A stretch of DNA of 64,000 nt, taken from contig JAFGSB010000059.1 of the NCBI GenBank assembly GCA_016934825.1, forward strand, positions 124,001 to 188,000, read 5' to 3'. The notes under the pieces are model-generated. The model ran no database searches and was not told the origin of the DNA. It was given only the letters and a program-made list of their open reading frames with translations. The stretch comes from Candidatus Zhuqueibacterota bacterium. GTDB lineage: Bacteria; Zhuqueibacterota; Zhuqueibacteria; Residuimicrobiales; Krinioviventaceae. The position numbers were made by a program, and so were the translations under genes. Numbering within the stretch: position 1 is the stretch's first letter; each line of letters opens with the position of its first letter. Positions 35,726-45,599 of the stretch are shown piece by piece.

Positions 35726-38692
35726 ATGATTGGTAAATCACTCTCCCATTATAAGATCCTCGAAAAGCTGGGCGAGGGTGGTATGGGAATTGTCTATAAA
35801 GCCAAAGACACCAAACTGGACCGCTCTGTTGCCCTCAAGTTTTTGCCGCCGTATCTAAGTCAGGCAGAAGAAGAGAAGAAACGCTTCATTTGTGAAGCCC
35901 AAGCCGCCTCCAGACTGGATCATAATAACATCTGTACAGTTCATGAGATCGAAGAGACCGAAGATGGTCAGATGTTTATCGCCATGGTATTTTATGAAGG
36001 TGAGACCCTCAAGAAGAAGATCGAAAGAGGTCCACTGCAGATTGATGAAGTTTTGGATATCTCGATTCAGATCGCTGATGGATTGAAGAAAGCGCATGAA
36101 AATAACATTTTACACAGAGACATCAAACCAGCGAATATTTTTATGACAAACGATGGTGTGGCAAAGATTCTTGATTTTGGTCTGGCCAAGTTATCGGGTC
36201 AAACGAAACTGACAAAGACCGGATCTACACTGGGGACCGTGTTTTACATGTCCACGGAACAAACACAGGGAGAGAAGGTCGACCACCGCACGGATATCTG
36301 GTCGTTCGGCGTGTTGCTTTATGAAATGATCACAAGCCAATTGCCTTTTCAGGGAGATTATGAACAGGCGGTTGTTTATTCTATCCTCAATGAAGAGCCC
36401 AAGCCTCTGACCGGTTTGCGGACAGGTGTACCAATGGAGCTGGAACGTATCGTGAACAAAGCCCTTGAGAAGAATCCTGCGGAACGCTACCAGAGTGTCG
36501 GAGATCTGATCGTTGATTTGAAGAAACTGAAGAGAGAGACAGACTCAACGGTTAAACCTCCACCAGTTGAAGTGATAGAAAAGGCAAAAAAAAAGAACCT
36601 GTTAAAAAAGACTCTCATTCCTGTGGCTACCGGTCTGATTTTAATTCTCGCATTTCTGTTGTTAAGGTCATTTATCAAAGAGGACGTGCTGGGCTCAGCG
36701 CCTGTACCCATCGCAGTGCTCAGCTTTGAGAATCATACCGGTGATGACGCTTATGACCGGCTGCAGAAGGTGATCCCCAATCTTTTGATCACAAGCCTTG
36801 AGCAGTCAAAGTATCTTCGCGTGACCACCTGGCAGCGTATGTATGATCTGCTCAAACAGGTCGGCAGGGAAGATATAGAAGTGATTGACGAGGAGCTGGG
36901 ATTCGAGCTCTGCCGTATAGACGGTGTGGATGCCATTGTACTGGGGAGCATTACGAAGCTTGGAGATGTTTTTGTGACTGATATAAAAGTACTGGATGTG
37001 CATACTAAGGAGCTTTTGAAAAGCGTACGTTCTGAGGGTAAGGGTGTATCGAGCATCATCGAGAAACAGATTGATGATCTTGCTCGGGAGGTATCAAGGG
37101 GTGTAGGATTGTCAGACCGCCGGCTGGCCACAGTTGAGCGGCCTGTTGCTGAGATGACGACCACATCACTGGAAGCCTACCACTTATACCTGCGCGGAAG
37201 AGAGGAGCGTGAAAGATTTCATTACAGTGAGTCCATTCTTTTTCATAAGAAGGCTCTGGCATTGGACTCGACTTTCGCCATGGCATACTGTGATCTCGCA
37301 GACGCGTATTATAATACAGGTGCTGATGATTCAGGAATAGAAGCTATAGAGAAAGCAAAACGCTACTCGGAAAAGGCTACGGAAAAAGAGAGACTTTTCA
37401 TCGAAGCGATTTATGCCGGTACTATTGAGCGTGACAGACAAAAAAAAATTCGTATTCTAACCCGGTTGACCCGGCAATATCTTAAATATAAAGACGCTTA
37501 CCAAGAGTTGGGCCTATCTTACAGTCGCATTGATTATTCAAGATCAATCGAAGCGTACAATAAAGTAGTAGAGCTTGATCCCTTTGACCGGTCGGCCTGG
37601 AATGCGTTGGGTTATGTATACGAATGGGTGGGAAATTATGAAAAGGCCATGGAATGTTTCGAACGATACGCGGCCGTTTCTCCGGGCGATGCCAATCCGT
37701 ATGACAGCATGGGAGAGCTCTATTTGACCATGGGAAGGATCGATGAGGCACTTGAAAAATATAAGAAGGCCGTGGAGCTGGAGCCTGGATATTCGGAATA
37801 CCCGGTCAGTTATATCTATGCTATGAAAGAAAACTATCATGAAGCGGAGAAATGGGCGGACAGGCGCATTACCACGGCGCCGTACCTGTATCAACAGGCA
37901 AGAGGCCATTCACTCAAAGCGTTTTATACCTACTGGAAAGGCCAATACGATTCAGCCATGACAATGCTGGACAGAACGAAAGCATTGTCTGCTGAAGCAG
38001 GGGATCAGGATAATGAGGCATATGTTGAATGGCTGAGAGCATGGATTTATTATGAGAGGGACAAGCCAGTTCTTGCACGGAAATGTTTCAAAAGATGGTT
38101 TGCTATGATGCGGACTTGGGTGACATGTTATAACACCGGTGTTGGATTGGTGTGTGTAAAGGAAGGAAAAATCGATTCTGCGAAGATCAACCTGCAAAAT
38201 ATAAAGGAATATTTGCCGAAGATTGGACGCGGCTGGAAGGATTGGGGAGATTTTTATTACGGCTTGCTGTATAGTGAGATACTGCTGGCTGAGAACAAGC
38301 CTGAGGAAGCAATCGCATTCTGCGAAAAGCATTCGCCCTTAGGCAATGGATTCATTGGTTTTAGCACTGGATCGATTTACATCATCATCAATAACCAACT
38401 CACTATTATGAAGGATGTACTTGCCCGCGCCTATTACCAGAGTGGAAATATCGATAAAGCCATCAAAGTCTATGAAAAACTGATCTCTTTTGACCCAAAT
38501 CGAAGAGGACGTGATCTCATCCAGCCCAGATACTATTATCGCCTGGCTAAACTCTACGAAGAAAAGGGAAAGAAAGACAAAGCCATCGAACGTTATGAAA
38601 AGTTCCTCGATATCTGGAAAGGTGCGGATGAGGATCTGCCGGAGTTGATCGATGCAACTGCAAGGCTGGCAAGACTGAAGGGATTAGGTTAA
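35726..38692 (+). CDS. Membrane Ser/Thr protein kinase with TPR sensor region
   Basis: A 988-residue Hanks-type kinase. The N-terminal cytoplasmic kinase domain (about 8-270) has GEGGMG (16-21), Lys38 in VALKF, HRDIKPAN with Asp132, and DFG at 150-152; the APE-like segment reads MSTEQTQGE. A membrane span lies at about 293-313 (LIPVATGLILILAFLLL). After it comes a domain like the FlgO/CsgG or TolB-N fold seen in such proteins (about 325-465, with VPIAVLSFENHTGDD), then some eight to ten TPR-like repeats to the C-terminus. Such kinases are common in several phyla with complex signalling; the signal is unknown. RBS is AACGGGGAG. Preceded by an intrinsic terminator. Confidence 0.9.
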   Translation: MIGKSLSHYKILEKLGEGGMGIVYKAKDTKLDRSVALKFLPPYLSQAEEEKKRFICEAQAASRLDHNNICTVHEIEETEDGQMFIAMVFYEGETLKKKIERGPLQIDEVLDISIQIADGLKKAHENNILHRDIKPANIFMTNDGVAKILDFGLAKLSGQTKLTKTGSTLGTVFYMSTEQTQGEKVDHRTDIWSFGVLLYEMITSQLPFQGDYEQAVVYSILNEEPKPLTGLRTGVPMELERIVNKALEKNPAERYQSVGDLIVDLKKLKRETDSTVKPPPVEVIEKAKKKNLLKKTLIPVATGLILILAFLLLRSFIKEDVLGSAPVPIAVLSFENHTGDDAYDRLQKVIPNLLITSLEQSKYLRVTTWQRMYDLLKQVGREDIEVIDEELGFELCRIDGVDAIVLGSITKLGDVFVTDIKVLDVHTKELLKSVRSEGKGVSSIIEKQIDDLAREVSRGVGLSDRRLATVERPVAEMTTTSLEAYHLYLRGREERERFHYSESILFHKKALALDSTFAMAYCDLADAYYNTGADDSGIEAIEKAKRYSEKATEKERLFIEAIYAGTIERDRQKKIRILTRLTRQYLKYKDAYQELGLSYSRIDYSRSIEAYNKVVELDPFDRSAWNALGYVYEWVGNYEKAMECFERYAAVSPGDANPYDSMGELYLTMGRIDEALEKYKKAVELEPGYSEYPVSYIYAMKENYHEAEKWADRRITTAPYLYQQARGHSLKAFYTYWKGQYDSAMTMLDRTKALSAEAGDQDNEAYVEWLRAWIYYERDKPVLARKCFKRWFAMMRTWVTCYNTGVGLVCVKEGKIDSAKINLQNIKEYLPKIGRGWKDWGDFYYGLLYSEILLAENKPEEAIAFCEKHSPLGNGFIGFSTGSIYIIINNQLTIMKDVLARAYYQSGNIDKAIKVYEKLISFDPNRRGRDLIQPRYYYRLAKLYEEKGKKDKAIERYEKFLDIWKGADEDLPELIDATARLARLKGLG

Positions 38693-41839: not shown

Positions 41840-41940
41840 TTGTTTTTAACAATCGGTGAATTGTATAAAATCACCTCGTTGTCCGTCAAGTTATTGCGGC
41901 TGTACCACGAGAAAGGTCTGGTGATCCCCGCCCGACAATT
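41840..41940 (+). pseudogene. MerR-family regulator N-terminal fragment
   Basis: Starting at TTG 41840 (GAGGG upstream) the frame reads FLTIGELYKITSLSVKLLRLY followed by HEKGLVIPAR, the first helix-turn-helix of a MerR-family regulator. After about 33 residues the resemblance ends, and the frame continues only to 42034 with no dimerisation or sensor part. It therefore looks like a deletion remnant. Chance is unlikely for 30 matching residues. The DNA after the break (41990-42025) is GC-rich and palindromic. Confidence 0.6.
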
Positions 41941-42025
41941 ATTTAACGTAGATCAATTTAAGGCTGGACAAATAATAATCCGAGCCTCCGGGTGGTCCAA
42001 GCAGACCTCCCCGGGGTCAAAGGGT

Positions 42026-43591
42026 TTATCTTAGCGCCCGTGGGCTTACTTTTTTATAATCGTACGGCCGGGTCCAGGTGGAGTAGTAACTTTCATCCCT
42101 GAGTAACTCCAGGTTCGTGTCGAAATAGCGGTTGAGGATAACCCTGAAAGTGTTTACCGGCGTTATCGATTTATACAGTAATGAATCCCCGTTAGCCGGC
42201 AGATAATAAGCGTTAAGAATGGAAAACCTCTCTTTGAGGTTGGTCTTTTCCATACTTTTCCAGTCCAGATGCGATCCCGGCCCGTGGTCCGCTTGCAGGA
42301 CAATGACCGGCGGATTATCAGGCGTTAACCGTAAAAGGCTGTCGATGGTCACTTTAATCCTGGTGTTGATGAATTGAAGCTGCTGGATATAATTGTTCAC
42401 ATATTCCCGTTGTGAAGCGTTTTTGAATTTTAAAAAATGCGTACCGTCTTTGAATGAAAATTGCCGGTTCTGTTTTCTCTCCTTACCGCTGGCTTTAAAA
42501 ATGAACGGCGGATGCGGTGAAATAATATGGGCAAACACGAAATACGGTTCATCTTCCCGGGGGATTTTGTATATATTATCAAGCGTATAAAAGATCCTGT
42601 CCCGGTGCCAGCTGAATTCGTTAACACTTTTGATCTCGTTCAATATATGAGGTATGGGTGTGGTATTTAACAATTCCACTAAAAATTCGTCGGTCACGAA
42701 ACGGTCAAACATGTAATTATCCGCATTTTGTAATTCGGTAAAAGAATAGCCGGAAGAAAACGCGGTTATTTTATAGCCGTGTTCTTTGAGGAATTTAAAC
42801 AATTGATTGTACCTGATCACTTCCCGGAGAGGTTCTCTGCTGAAATTATCAACTCCCAGTTTATCGGTTATATCATTCAGATATTTTAAATTTAAACTGG
42901 AGGTCAGGGACAGGGATGTCTGGCAATAGTTGGAATGACTGTTTTCGGCAACATAGAAACCTTTTTGGGTCAAAGCGTCCAGAAATTCAGAGTTGTCATA
43001 CTGATATATTTCTTTGAGAACATCGGCGCCGCCGTAGCCATCCAGAATGATATAAAAAATGTTCGGAAGGTTTTTTATGTCTTTTATATTTGGCGGATTT
43101 TGTAAATTCACATCCGTCACTTCATCAATATTCACTTTTTCCAGATTTTTTAATTTATAAATTGTAATGTTGATAACGGAAAAAGCCACTAACAAAACGG
43201 AAACCATATTCAGGAACTTTGTGAATTTCGCCAAATCTTTTCGATTACGCAGGACAAGGATGGTAATTATAATAAACAACAAACCACCGACCAAAAACAG
43301 ATACCGGGGCTTGCCGATATGGATGGAACCTAACTGCCACCACCACACTTTGTCAAAAATCCGACCATAGGTCATGAACATAAGGATAAAAAGCGAAACA
43401 AGAATTGCCGCTTTATTGGCACTGCGAATGATAAACGAGGATAGCAGGAACAGAACAGCGGTTCCTAATAATAAAACAGAGAAAGGTAAAATAATACTGT
43501 TAAAAGAGACCTGGTAAACGTTGTATGAATATAGAAACAGAACCGGATAAATAGCAAAAAAAAACGGATGTACAGCCCTAACTTTTTTCAT
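42026..43591 (-). CDS. Membrane sulfatase/phosphoglycerol-transferase-like enzyme
   Basis: A 521-residue protein with about five N-terminal membrane spans (1-150) and an extracytoplasmic alkaline-phosphatase-superfamily domain (about 175-510). Metal and nucleophile patterns are visible: IILDGYGG, SNYCQTSLSLTSSLN in which Thr or Ser may be the nucleophile, HIISPHPPF and LQADHGPGS. This layout is known for LtaS-like and MdoB-like phosphoglycerol or phosphoethanolamine transferases. The substrate is unknown. AAGG precedes the start. Its ATG directly follows the stop of the methyltransferase gene, in a three-gene cassette with a YLDPGTGS protein. Confidence 0.85.
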   Translation of the reverse strand: MKKVRAVHPFFFAIYPVLFLYSYNVYQVSFNSIILPFSVLLLGTAVLFLLSSFIIRSANKAAILVSLFILMFMTYGRIFDKVWWWQLGSIHIGKPRYLFLVGGLLFIIITILVLRNRKDLAKFTKFLNMVSVLLVAFSVINITIYKLKNLEKVNIDEVTDVNLQNPPNIKDIKNLPNIFYIILDGYGGADVLKEIYQYDNSEFLDALTQKGFYVAENSHSNYCQTSLSLTSSLNLKYLNDITDKLGVDNFSREPLREVIRYNQLFKFLKEHGYKITAFSSGYSFTELQNADNYMFDRFVTDEFLVELLNTTPIPHILNEIKSVNEFSWHRDRIFYTLDNIYKIPREDEPYFVFAHIISPHPPFIFKASGKERKQNRQFSFKDGTHFLKFKNASQREYVNNYIQQLQFINTRIKVTIDSLLRLTPDNPPVIVLQADHGPGSHLDWKSMEKTNLKERFSILNAYYLPANGDSLLYKSITPVNTFRVILNRYFDTNLELLRDESYYSTWTRPYDYKKVSPRALR

Positions 43592-44974
43592 TTATATTGC
43601 CTTCCGTTGTAATAAATATAAAGTTCTTTCCGATTCATTTATGGAATGGGATTCGAGAATATCGAAATAACCGGAAAAGTTTTTTTCGAAATCCTGTTGT
43701 GTGTAATGCGGGAAAATATCCTCACGGGTTGCGAGCAGTCTTTGCACCTGTGAATCGTTTTTGGGAACAAATTCAATGATCAGGGTTTTACAGGTGTTAT
43801 GAAAAAATTCGGCGATATTGATTAACGGAACATTATTGGAAATAGCCAGGTGATGAATAAGCGCCAGGGCCATCACCATGTCCGCCGGACCGCGTTCAAT
43901 AAAGGACATACGCTCTTTATTTTTCCAGCCGATGCCGGGACTGGGATTGGTCAGGTCCAGTAATAACGGCAGCAATTGTGTTTCTTTTTTTTGCCGGCAT
44001 TCGAGATAATCCAGTTCAACCGCAACCGGATCAATGTCAAACGCGATGGTTGGGATGTCACTGTCCGATGCGATACGACTGAAAAAACCGTTGTTTGCAC
44101 CCAGGTCCCATACGTTTCTGGGTTTATATTTTTCGATACAGGTCTTTATAATTTCCATTTTATGCCGTTGGGCCGATGAAGAATAATTGGTGTCCTGGTA
44201 ATAATCGCCCCATTCTGTTCCGGCTGCTTTCCAGGTTATTTTATTGACCGCCGTTTGTAAATTGTCGACAAGGCCAAGAAGCGCGAATTTTTTAACCTGA
44301 CGGTGAACCGGTTTCACCGCTTTGTCGGCATAATGTTTTTGGCTTTTGGCGTGTATATGAATGTGAGACAGCAGAGAAAAAGAGAACCTTGTGCGAAACG
44401 GTAACAGGGAAGCGGCCAGGTCCAGGGGAACGCCGTCAATATAAATACGAAACAGTTGATTCAGCCGGACATCTTTATATTTCATTAACGCCAGCGGCGC
44501 AAGAAAATGCTGACAAAACTGCCGGTAAGCGACCCAGGGTTCGCCCTCTTTATATTTTTCAAATGAAAGTGTGTCGATAAATACGGGTTTACCGTTGTAA
44601 AATTGTATGTTATAAGCCGAGCAGTCTTTAAGCGACATACCGTAATCCAGGGCTATTTTTTGTATTTTCAGTGTGGTTAATGCCGCGTCCTTTAACTGTG
44701 AAAAACACCACTCGTAAGGATAAGAAATAAAAGGGACCCGGTCCGGTTTTATTACTTTGTACGCCTGCCCTGAAAGCGCATAATCCGGGTCTGCTTCTTC
44801 ATGGGGAATGAGCAGGTTCTCTTTCACTAACTTGTCGTACAAACCGGAGCCGATCAAAAAATCGTAATTTTCTTTATAGTATGTGTTAACCTGGCGATAA
44901 AGGAGCCCATCCCGAAAGAATAAAAACCCGCTGGGATCGCGAAAAGAACCGGATTGTTTGTCATTCAGGGTCAT
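43592..44974 (-). CDS. Two-part SAM methyltransferase of a surface-sugar cassette
   Basis: A 460-residue protein. The N-terminal half (about 10-240) has GSFRDPSGFLFFRDGLLYRQ and DCSAYNIQFYNGKPVFIDT, which resembles the phosphotransferase-like fold (aminoglycoside kinase type). The C-terminal half (about 265-455) is a Rossmann methyltransferase with VWDLGANNGFFSRIA and ALALIHHL. It is probably a surface glycan or lipid modifying enzyme; substrate unknown. I prefer ATG 44974 (GGTGA upstream) to ATG 44992. The start overlaps the small membrane protein gene and the stop abuts the sulfatase gene. Confidence 0.8.
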   Translation of the reverse strand: MTLNDKQSGSFRDPSGFLFFRDGLLYRQVNTYYKENYDFLIGSGLYDKLVKENLLIPHEEADPDYALSGQAYKVIKPDRVPFISYPYEWCFSQLKDAALTTLKIQKIALDYGMSLKDCSAYNIQFYNGKPVFIDTLSFEKYKEGEPWVAYRQFCQHFLAPLALMKYKDVRLNQLFRIYIDGVPLDLAASLLPFRTRFSFSLLSHIHIHAKSQKHYADKAVKPVHRQVKKFALLGLVDNLQTAVNKITWKAAGTEWGDYYQDTNYSSSAQRHKMEIIKTCIEKYKPRNVWDLGANNGFFSRIASDSDIPTIAFDIDPVAVELDYLECRQKKETQLLPLLLDLTNPSPGIGWKNKERMSFIERGPADMVMALALIHHLAISNNVPLINIAEFFHNTCKTLIIEFVPKNDSQVQRLLATREDIFPHYTQQDFEKNFSGYFDILESHSINESERTLYLLQRKAI

Positions 44975-45191
44975 TTGTCTGTTCACCGGCATTTTTTGAA
45001 AAGATTTTCTTCAATGATGTCGTTATTTTCTGCCAGAAAATTTTAACGGCAAACGCGGCTCCAAGTAAGGAAGCAATTAATATTTGCAAAATATAGCTGC
45101 CGGTGCCCGGATCAAGATAGGCATAGGCGTTTTGAGTATTCAATAAAAGCAAAAATATAAATACCGGACTAAATCTGATCACATATTTCAT
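44961..45191 (-). CDS. Small YLDPGTGS membrane protein
   Basis: A 76-residue protein with a signal segment (about 1-24, ending NAYA), the conserved motif AYLDPGTGSYILQ directly after it, one membrane span (about 33-52) and a Lys-rich cytoplasmic-type tail. I know small proteins with YLDPGTGS next to methyltransferase and sulfatase genes in several phyla, but no function is established. GAGAAGG precedes ATG 45191. It overlaps the next gene by 14 bp or more, so the three genes are translated together. Confidence 0.8.
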   Translation of the reverse strand: MKYVIRFSPVFIFLLLLNTQNAYAYLDPGTGSYILQILIASLLGAAFAVKIFWQKITTSLKKIFSKNAGEQTNDPE

Positions 45192-45599
45192 GTTCAGCCT
45201 TCTCTCTGTAAAATGTTAAAAAATGAATTTAATAAAATAATATCAAAAAAAGAAAATTGCAAATATTATTCCACATATAACCTTTATTTCGTGTCCCCGC
45301 CGGGGATAAATGTTGATTACCTTGTAATTAATATAACGATTCAGGATTTTATATCAAATATTTTTATTCGGAAGAGTGCTGTAATTCATTATTATTTTGT
45401 AAGTTAGACAGTTGAGAAATTTTAAGTCCACTTTCATTGAATGGATAAAATTGATTCAGGCGTATCAAAATTAATTTTTTCGGGTTCACAAAATCAGACG
45501 ATTGTAAAAATGTATCATTATTGAACAGGGGTAAGTAATATGTACTCTCAAGACTGATCGTAAAAATCTAAATAATATGGTAATAATCTATGCCTATCT
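45192..45599. other. Intergenic region, no feature seen
   Basis: About 400 bp, AT-rich, between the divergently related small membrane protein and the end of the subtilase gene. A 64-codon frame (45213-45407) has no ribosome site and low-complexity AT-rich codons, so it is not called. Confidence 0.4.

Follow-up and report, generated by a model that had tools for sequence, protein, structure and literature searches.

The unit analysed here is a set of three genes at positions 42,026 to 45,191 of a 64,000-nucleotide (nt) stretch of contig JAFGSB010000059.1 (assembly GCA_016934825.1) from a Candidatus Zhuqueibacterota bacterium; this whole stretch is referred to as the window. The genes lie on the minus strand and encode, in this order, a small membrane protein with the motif YLDPGTGSY (SP, 76 residues, 44961..45191, defined by its open reading frame (ORF), homologues and alignment), a kinase-methyltransferase homologous to rhizobial NoeA (MT, 466 residues, 43592..44992, defined by its ORF, NoeA match and structural model) and a membrane enzyme of the alkaline phosphatase superfamily (SU, 521 residues, 42026..43591, Pfam Sulfatase PF00884 at 7.8e-13, and model). 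We tentatively propose, with a confidence just short of even, that the rhizobial NoeA/NoeB module is one case of a more general unit represented by this triad, and that this unit modifies the envelope from both sides. Most likely it would decorate surface molecules with a phosphate-based group, which may also be methylated.

This reading is favoured because the triad and its gene order are kept in more than 20 phyla, SP and MT are present or absent together in the sampled phyla, and the distances between the proteins correlate. It is also favoured because MT is a NoeA homologue, rhizobial operons carry a YLDPGTGS ORF and the SU profile reaches NoeB; because the kinase residues are invariant, SU has a Thr or Ser nucleophile and its closest folds are MCR and EptA; and because the cytosolic module is swapped in phosphonate loci and glycan-assembly genes recur as neighbours. 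Since Krysinska et al. (2022) described a NoeA-like kinase-methyltransferase with its neighbours, the window triad is an added member of a known, biochemically uncharacterised module. The features that we have not found reported before are the SP motif protein, the near-strict co-occurrence of SP and MT, and the context of phosphonate and cytidine diphosphate (CDP)-glycerol genes.

In the window, the SP and MT genes share 32 nt in different frames and the MT and SU genes abut with 0 nt between them; a first-pass annotation made from the DNA letters had described the three genes as overlapping or abutting. That annotation had also mentioned similar triads in other phyla, and the recurrence was borne out. 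Scanning GTDB genomes with the 76-residue SP gave 56 loci, 57 with the window, a set that is biased towards close relatives because it was found through SP. The loci come from more than 20 phyla; counting those that carry a title in the tree, at least 24 named NCBI groups are represented. Near the SP gene, MT was present in 54 of the 57 loci (55 of 58 when a duplicate of the window is counted) and SU in 47; the order SP-MT-SU was observed in 40/57, and SP and MT overlap in 40 of the 51 measurable pairs. The MT-positive loci include one (L018) in which MT is cut by an assembly gap of Ns. Regarding the three loci without MT, L046 is at a contig end, L042 has SP beside SU, the MT of that genome being at another place together with a second SP, and L023 is a different kind of locus with a phosphonate set. 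Whole-genome searches of 50 locus genomes found SP in all of them, almost always once, and a full-length MT, once, in 48.

Less biased samples were taken as sets of genomes from single phyla, each containing its seed genome. In the phylum of the window (82 genomes), SP was found in four genomes (E < 1e-18) and full-length MT in the same four (Fisher p 6e-7). Further SP-profile matches there at E 1e-6 to 1e-3, mostly in long ORFs, lacked the motif and were rejected as noise. Of 248 genomes from the phylum of a Bacteroidota locus, 7 have MT, and SP was found in those 7 only (p 1e-13); the SP profile used for this sample (A6) includes sequences from those 7 genomes, which aids finding them and does not prevent finding SP alone. 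The phylum of a Desulfobacterales locus (148 genomes) had MT in 3, and of the two new cases one has SP adjoining and one starts at a contig end. SP was placed 22 times in 19 of the 246 genomes from the phylum of a Planctomycetota locus, with MT adjoining 18, and 7 times in 250 genomes from the phylum of Pelotomaculum, where 5 places have MT and 2 are fused to another enzyme. Combining the four SP-driven samples, MT adjoins SP at 34 of 40 places, and several of the remaining places have the same SU or another phospho-transfer enzyme instead. A wide distribution of the small protein without the other two genes was thus looked for and not observed. Among 72,556 plasmids, MT was present in 65 records and SP in 62, nearly all from Sinorhizobium or Rhizobium. 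By these gene counts, the co-occurrence of SP and MT is near-strict.

Concerning the evolution of the unit, the MT tree mixes phyla, with 29 changes for 24 groups (minimum possible 23, shuffled mean 34.3). Because of this mixing, the phylum signal in the tree is weak to moderate and transfer is likely, with the caveat that metagenome bins can be contaminated. Protein distances correlate in Mantel tests (MT-SU r 0.65, MT-SP 0.49, SP-SU 0.49; 0 of 2000 permutations), as for a unit that is inherited together. No single fourth conserved gene was found around the triads, whose neighbours vary. MT was absent from phage records.

MT aligns with the NoeA proteins of Sinorhizobium/Ensifer plasmids at 35.5-36% identity over 96-97% of its length, which indicates full-length homology. 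Among 53 homologues across phyla, identity is 43-67% over ~460 residues, a high value for such a broad range of phyla. The model (predicted local distance difference test, pLDDT, 92.9) shows an N-terminal kinase-like part and a C-terminal S-adenosylmethionine (SAM) methyltransferase, with no membrane segments. The kinase-like domain covers about residues 15-225 (44318..44950, minus strand) and its residues R33, D123, N128 and D140 are invariant in 53/53 sequences. They correspond to K72, D166, N171 and D184 of protein kinase A as assigned for the homologue Lani_1194 in the main text of Krysinska et al. (PMC9758233), where Arg stands for the usual Lys and no ion-pair Glu was found. The class I SAM methyltransferase domain, assigned from its SAM-site residues and Foldseek, covers about residues 260-466 (43592..44215, minus strand); its site D296-x-G298-x-N300-x-G302 with D319/D321 is conserved, and D296, G298 and D319 are invariant in all 53. 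Mean conservation is 0.70 in the N-terminal half vs 0.64 in the C-terminal half. The initial description as a split-fold methyltransferase was therefore wrong, since the N-terminal ~220 residues form a separate kinase-like domain and the whole protein is a NoeA homologue.

The rhizobial operon gives this homology its context. The gene that follows nodL in both Ensifer canadensis and Rhizobium sp. T136 encodes a 'hypothetical protein' of ~71 residues, and behind it come noeA and then noeB; the sequence of the Ensifer small protein reads MPIIMSVLGFLILSIVPAHAYLDPGTGSMLVQG. On pSymA of S. meliloti 1021, a 71-residue YLDPGTGS ORF lies between nodL and noeA at 419091-419306 (L058:7092-7307); it bears no annotation in the plasmid gene table of the 1021 record, and no mention of it was found in the papers examined. 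The SU profile matches NoeB at 6e-21, with the Thr of ILTQVS and the Asp-His of the DHG motif aligned, which points to NoeB as a remote homologue of SU. The operon thus has the small ORF, NoeA and NoeB in the order of the window triad, and the small ORF overlaps noeA; it differs in that nodL leads it, it is symbiosis-regulated and NoeB is remote, whereas the window triad stands alone. According to PMC9758233, citing Ardourel 1995, noeA and noeB share the nod box n5 operon with nodL, and the hosts for which they act as host-range genes are particular Medicago. A strain with a truncated noeA did not nodulate 17 of 27 M. truncatula genotypes, a correlation only (PMC4053727). Although NoeA and NoeB have been on record as host-range nodulation genes since 1995, no paper on their chemistry was found. 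Hence the earlier remark that such triads lack a described function was incomplete: noeA and noeB of S. meliloti are genetically defined as host-range nodulation genes, and in 2022 the two were reported to form a conserved unit. In the main text of that 2022 study, homologues of the neighbour Lani_1193 occur in 65% and those of Lani_1195, a NoeB-like protein, in 38% of 816 loci (PMC9758233). The Lani_1194 family is the MT family, both being NoeA homologues, and has an alkaline-phosphatase-fold neighbour. Lani_1193 may be SP; neither its sequence nor a motif or topology is given in that main text, which is also silent on a phosphonate context. Placing NoeA and NoeB in a three-protein module of more than 20 phyla, which includes a small membrane protein and has a phosphonate variant that retains the outer enzyme, leads to the prediction that their modification is a phosphoester laid at the membrane, and earlier noeA mutants may have affected the ORF between nodL and noeA.

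The model of SU (pLDDT 93.0) begins with five long helices followed by a domain of alkaline phosphatase fold. The helices are predicted to be transmembrane (residues 8-23, 30-55, 58-82, 95-115 and 120-148; together residues 8-148, 43148..43570, minus strand), and the catalytic domain, recognised by its conserved residues, covers residues 176-521 (42026..43066, minus strand) with D184, the predicted nucleophile T225, H355, H360, D435 and H436. In an alignment of 39 sequences, D184 is conserved in 38 and H360 and D435 in all; position 225 is Thr in 36/39 and Ser in 3/39. At position 436 (window 42284-42286), where the DHG motif has its metal-ligand His, 26/39 sequences carry His and 13/39 carry Glu; this Glu may mark a functional subgroup. 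MCR-1 and EptA are the closest fold matches. Judging from the model, SU shares with EptA, MCR-1 and LtaS the transmembrane helices followed by an external alkaline phosphatase fold, the Thr nucleophile position and the metal ligands. It differs in being a family of its own, with ~11-16% identity to them and the Glu at position 436 in those 13 members. By analogy, this likeness supports the view that SU may work like these enzymes. The name sulfatase given at first holds for the superfamily (PF00884) and fails for the enzyme: a formylglycine type I sulfatase (S1) was rejected because the nucleophile position carries Thr or Ser, not Cys, and there is no P-x-R and no C/S-x-P-x-R motif. As side observations, a homologue of SU (30% identity over 97%) is encoded on the Chloroflexota plasmid CP069395.1 (L153:8001-9521) with no SP or MT annotated alongside, and a tandem SU pair stands behind MT in several loci (L015:11586-14688, L022:11599-14737, L056:4248-7965).

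SP of the window begins MKYVIRFSPVFIFLLLLNTQNAYAYLDPGTGSYILQ. Its architecture consists of a signal-like hydrophobic start, an AxA-type site, the stretch Y-x-D-P-G-T-G-S-Y-I-x-Q, a second hydrophobic segment and a basic tail, whose mean charge among homologues is about +4. In the SP alignment (A3), Y25, D27, P28, G29, T30, G31, S32, Y33, I34 and Q36 are invariant. The motif YLDPGTGSY (residues 25-33, 45093..45119, minus strand) lies right behind the signal-peptidase-like AxA site, where position -3 is A, T, V or S in 53/56 homologues and position -1 is A, G or S in 55/56; it is predicted to face outside. Searches of SP against Pfam, NCBIfam and PDB sequences gave nothing above noise, and no relevant paper on YLDPGTGS or YIDPGTGS and no described function of SP were found in the literature. 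The idea of a membrane partner gains support, and SP looks like one, because of the signal-like first segment, the AxA site, the one further transmembrane segment, the basic tail and a fusion to a phosphotransferase of cytosolic type. The accompanying suggestion that the methyltransferase acts inside and the phosphatase-fold enzyme outside is consistent with both models, that of MT having no membrane segments and that of SU having its catalytic domain behind five helices.

The fusion belongs to a second context of SP. In a chromosome-level WOR-3 bin without MT (L023/L150), SP heads a four-gene set of phosphonate type: a phosphoenolpyruvate (PEP) mutase-cytidylyltransferase, a phosphonopyruvate decarboxylase, an iron-dependent alcohol dehydrogenase and a CDP-glycerol-type transferase. 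A genome from the Planctomycetota side (G582; L145:3324-11693) has a like set between SP and an SU that is 38% identical to that of the window over its whole length, a second SU behind SP and no MT; the transferase of this set, which has no Pfam match, is named by its position and its likeness to the L150 protein. A third genome (G1016) encodes, in two copies, a 430-residue protein that has the SP segment as its N-terminus; the copies are 64% identical, and one of them matches PF04464 (CDP-glycerol phosphotransferase). Each copy adjoins a YidC/60KD_IMP-sulfatase fusion protein (L143:5623-9643, L144:6269-10311), and behind one copy lie genes for an aminotransferase, a PEP mutase-cytidylyltransferase and a decarboxylase. 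Such a fusion was not found in the other sampled genomes of that phylum and is therefore rare there. Together, these loci indicate that the cytosolic phospho-enzyme is replaced by another while SP is retained along with an SU-type enzyme, which ties SP to cytosolic phospho-transfer. The fusion also suggests, by analogy with the known biochemistry of the CDP-glycerol family, that the C-terminus of SP is in the cytosol. Phosphonate tailoring of surfaces via activation with cytidine monophosphate is known (PMC6697681, Rice et al. 2019); those pnt loci share the mutase-cytidylyltransferase, the decarboxylase and the CDP-glycerol-type transferase with this second SP/SU context, whereas no phosphonate genes are present in the window.

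Regarding these data, the triad could work as follows. SP would be a membrane protein whose YLDPGTGS end points outwards and whose basic tail reaches into the cytosol, where it would recruit the NoeA-type MT. MT would then phosphorylate an acceptor that is tethered to the membrane, either as a lipid or as the terminus of a lipid-linked glycan, and would probably methylate the same acceptor in the manner of WbdD. At the outer face, SU, using a Thr nucleophile as EptA, MCR and LtaS do, would act on the resulting phosphoester and most likely transfer the phospho-substituent to the final surface acceptor, perhaps a surface glycan. As an adaptor, SP would thus link a phospho-transfer enzyme in the cytosol with a phosphotransferase on the outside. 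The sequences show the gene unit with its overlaps, the near-strict co-occurrence, the homology to NoeA and, remotely, to NoeB and the conserved catalytic residues, and the models show the folds; the topology in the membrane, the formation of a complex, the kinase activity, the direction of transfer and all substrates are parts of this scheme that we infer. If true, the scheme names a widespread, undescribed route of envelope modification. A broader version is possible, and we are more doubtful about it: SP would be a general adaptor that plugs either a NoeA-type MT or a CDP-glycerol/phosphonate transferase into one family of external Thr-phosphotransferases. Envelope phosphorylation systems of this class would be modular and widely transferred, and the rhizobial operon would be a specialised case with an overlooked fourth gene.

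Several observations weigh against the two-sided unit. SU is also found alone, and about 10 of the 57 loci are without it, several of these at contig ends; no glycan genes adjoin the triad in the window itself. Foldseek covers chiefly the methyltransferase half of MT, and the kinase half is assigned through the published correspondence and the invariant residues, with Arg replacing the usual Lys. For every member of the families, kinase, methyltransferase and transferase activity is a prediction.

The closest structural precedent for MT provides a competing explanation, which we consider unlikely. WbdD of E. coli O9a is the top Foldseek match (E 4e-8, ~220 columns; other SAM methyltransferases match too), combines a kinase and a SAM methyltransferase in one protein and performs exactly such chemistry (PMC3482155). 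MT could accordingly cap a growing polysaccharide end by phosphorylation and methylation, stopping its growth; SP would merely anchor MT, and SU would independently place a lipid-derived group, phosphoethanolamine or phosphoglycerol, on the chain after export. Glycosyltransferase, GDP-mannose synthesis, polysaccharide ABC transporter and Wzz-type genes do recur near triads, and that of a Novosphingobium plasmid adjoins phosphomannomutase and GDP-mannose genes; however, many triads, that of the window among them, have no such neighbours, and the MT and SU genes are as tightly overlapped as partners in one step would be. The domain order is also the opposite: WbdD runs methyltransferase, kinase, coiled coil, belongs to a separate kinase lineage and has no SP or SU partner, whereas the kinase-like part of MT is N-terminal, there is no coiled-coil C-terminus and the alignment covers only those ~220 columns. 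The two families are kept apart in the main text of Krysinska et al. (PMC9758233).

It is rather improbable that the kinase-like domain serves only for binding, with MT O-methylating a glycan or lipid and SU trimming the same polymer as a phosphodiesterase or hydrolase. The Arg in place of the catalytic Lys and the missing ion-pair Glu reported in that main text would fit, and phosphotransfer by MT is a prediction; but mere binding would need neither the four invariant residues nor an N-terminal half that is the better conserved. Little credence is given to a module that decorates a secreted signal, the Nod factor in rhizobia and their own diffusible signals in other bacteria, in place of the cell envelope. 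The n5 operon with nodL and host-range genes and the M. truncatula phenotype agree with it, but the triad also occurs in groups that are not known to make such signals, Planctomycetota and candidate phyla among them, and the main text of PMC9758233 leaves envelope action open. As to unrelated genes that are merely adjacent, many loci come from metagenome bins, but the recurrence of the triad across phyla refutes this; the co-occurrence statistics, the conserved overlap and the same triad in isolate genomes and plasmids leave its probability practically nil.

Concerning the remaining features of the locus, Shine-Dalgarno-like sequences precede SP (GAGAAGG, 45198..45204, minus strand, 6 nt ahead of the ATG) and SU (GGAAGG, 43600..43605, minus strand, 8 nt ahead of the ATG), and both appear to be good ribosome sites. 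The window triad stands alone; its flanking genes encode a protein resembling cation-chloride cotransporters and a subtilase that has a Por-type tail. The PADLOC models of anti-phage defence gave no match save a marginal one (0.0097) to a transmembrane region. The start of a truncated MerR-type regulator at 41840-42034 (plus strand; PF00376 at 4.5e-6, below the cut-off) overlaps the end of SU by 9 nt and looks like a gene remnant. Further away, a Ser/Thr protein kinase of 988 residues with tetratricopeptide repeats is encoded at 35726-38692 (plus strand).

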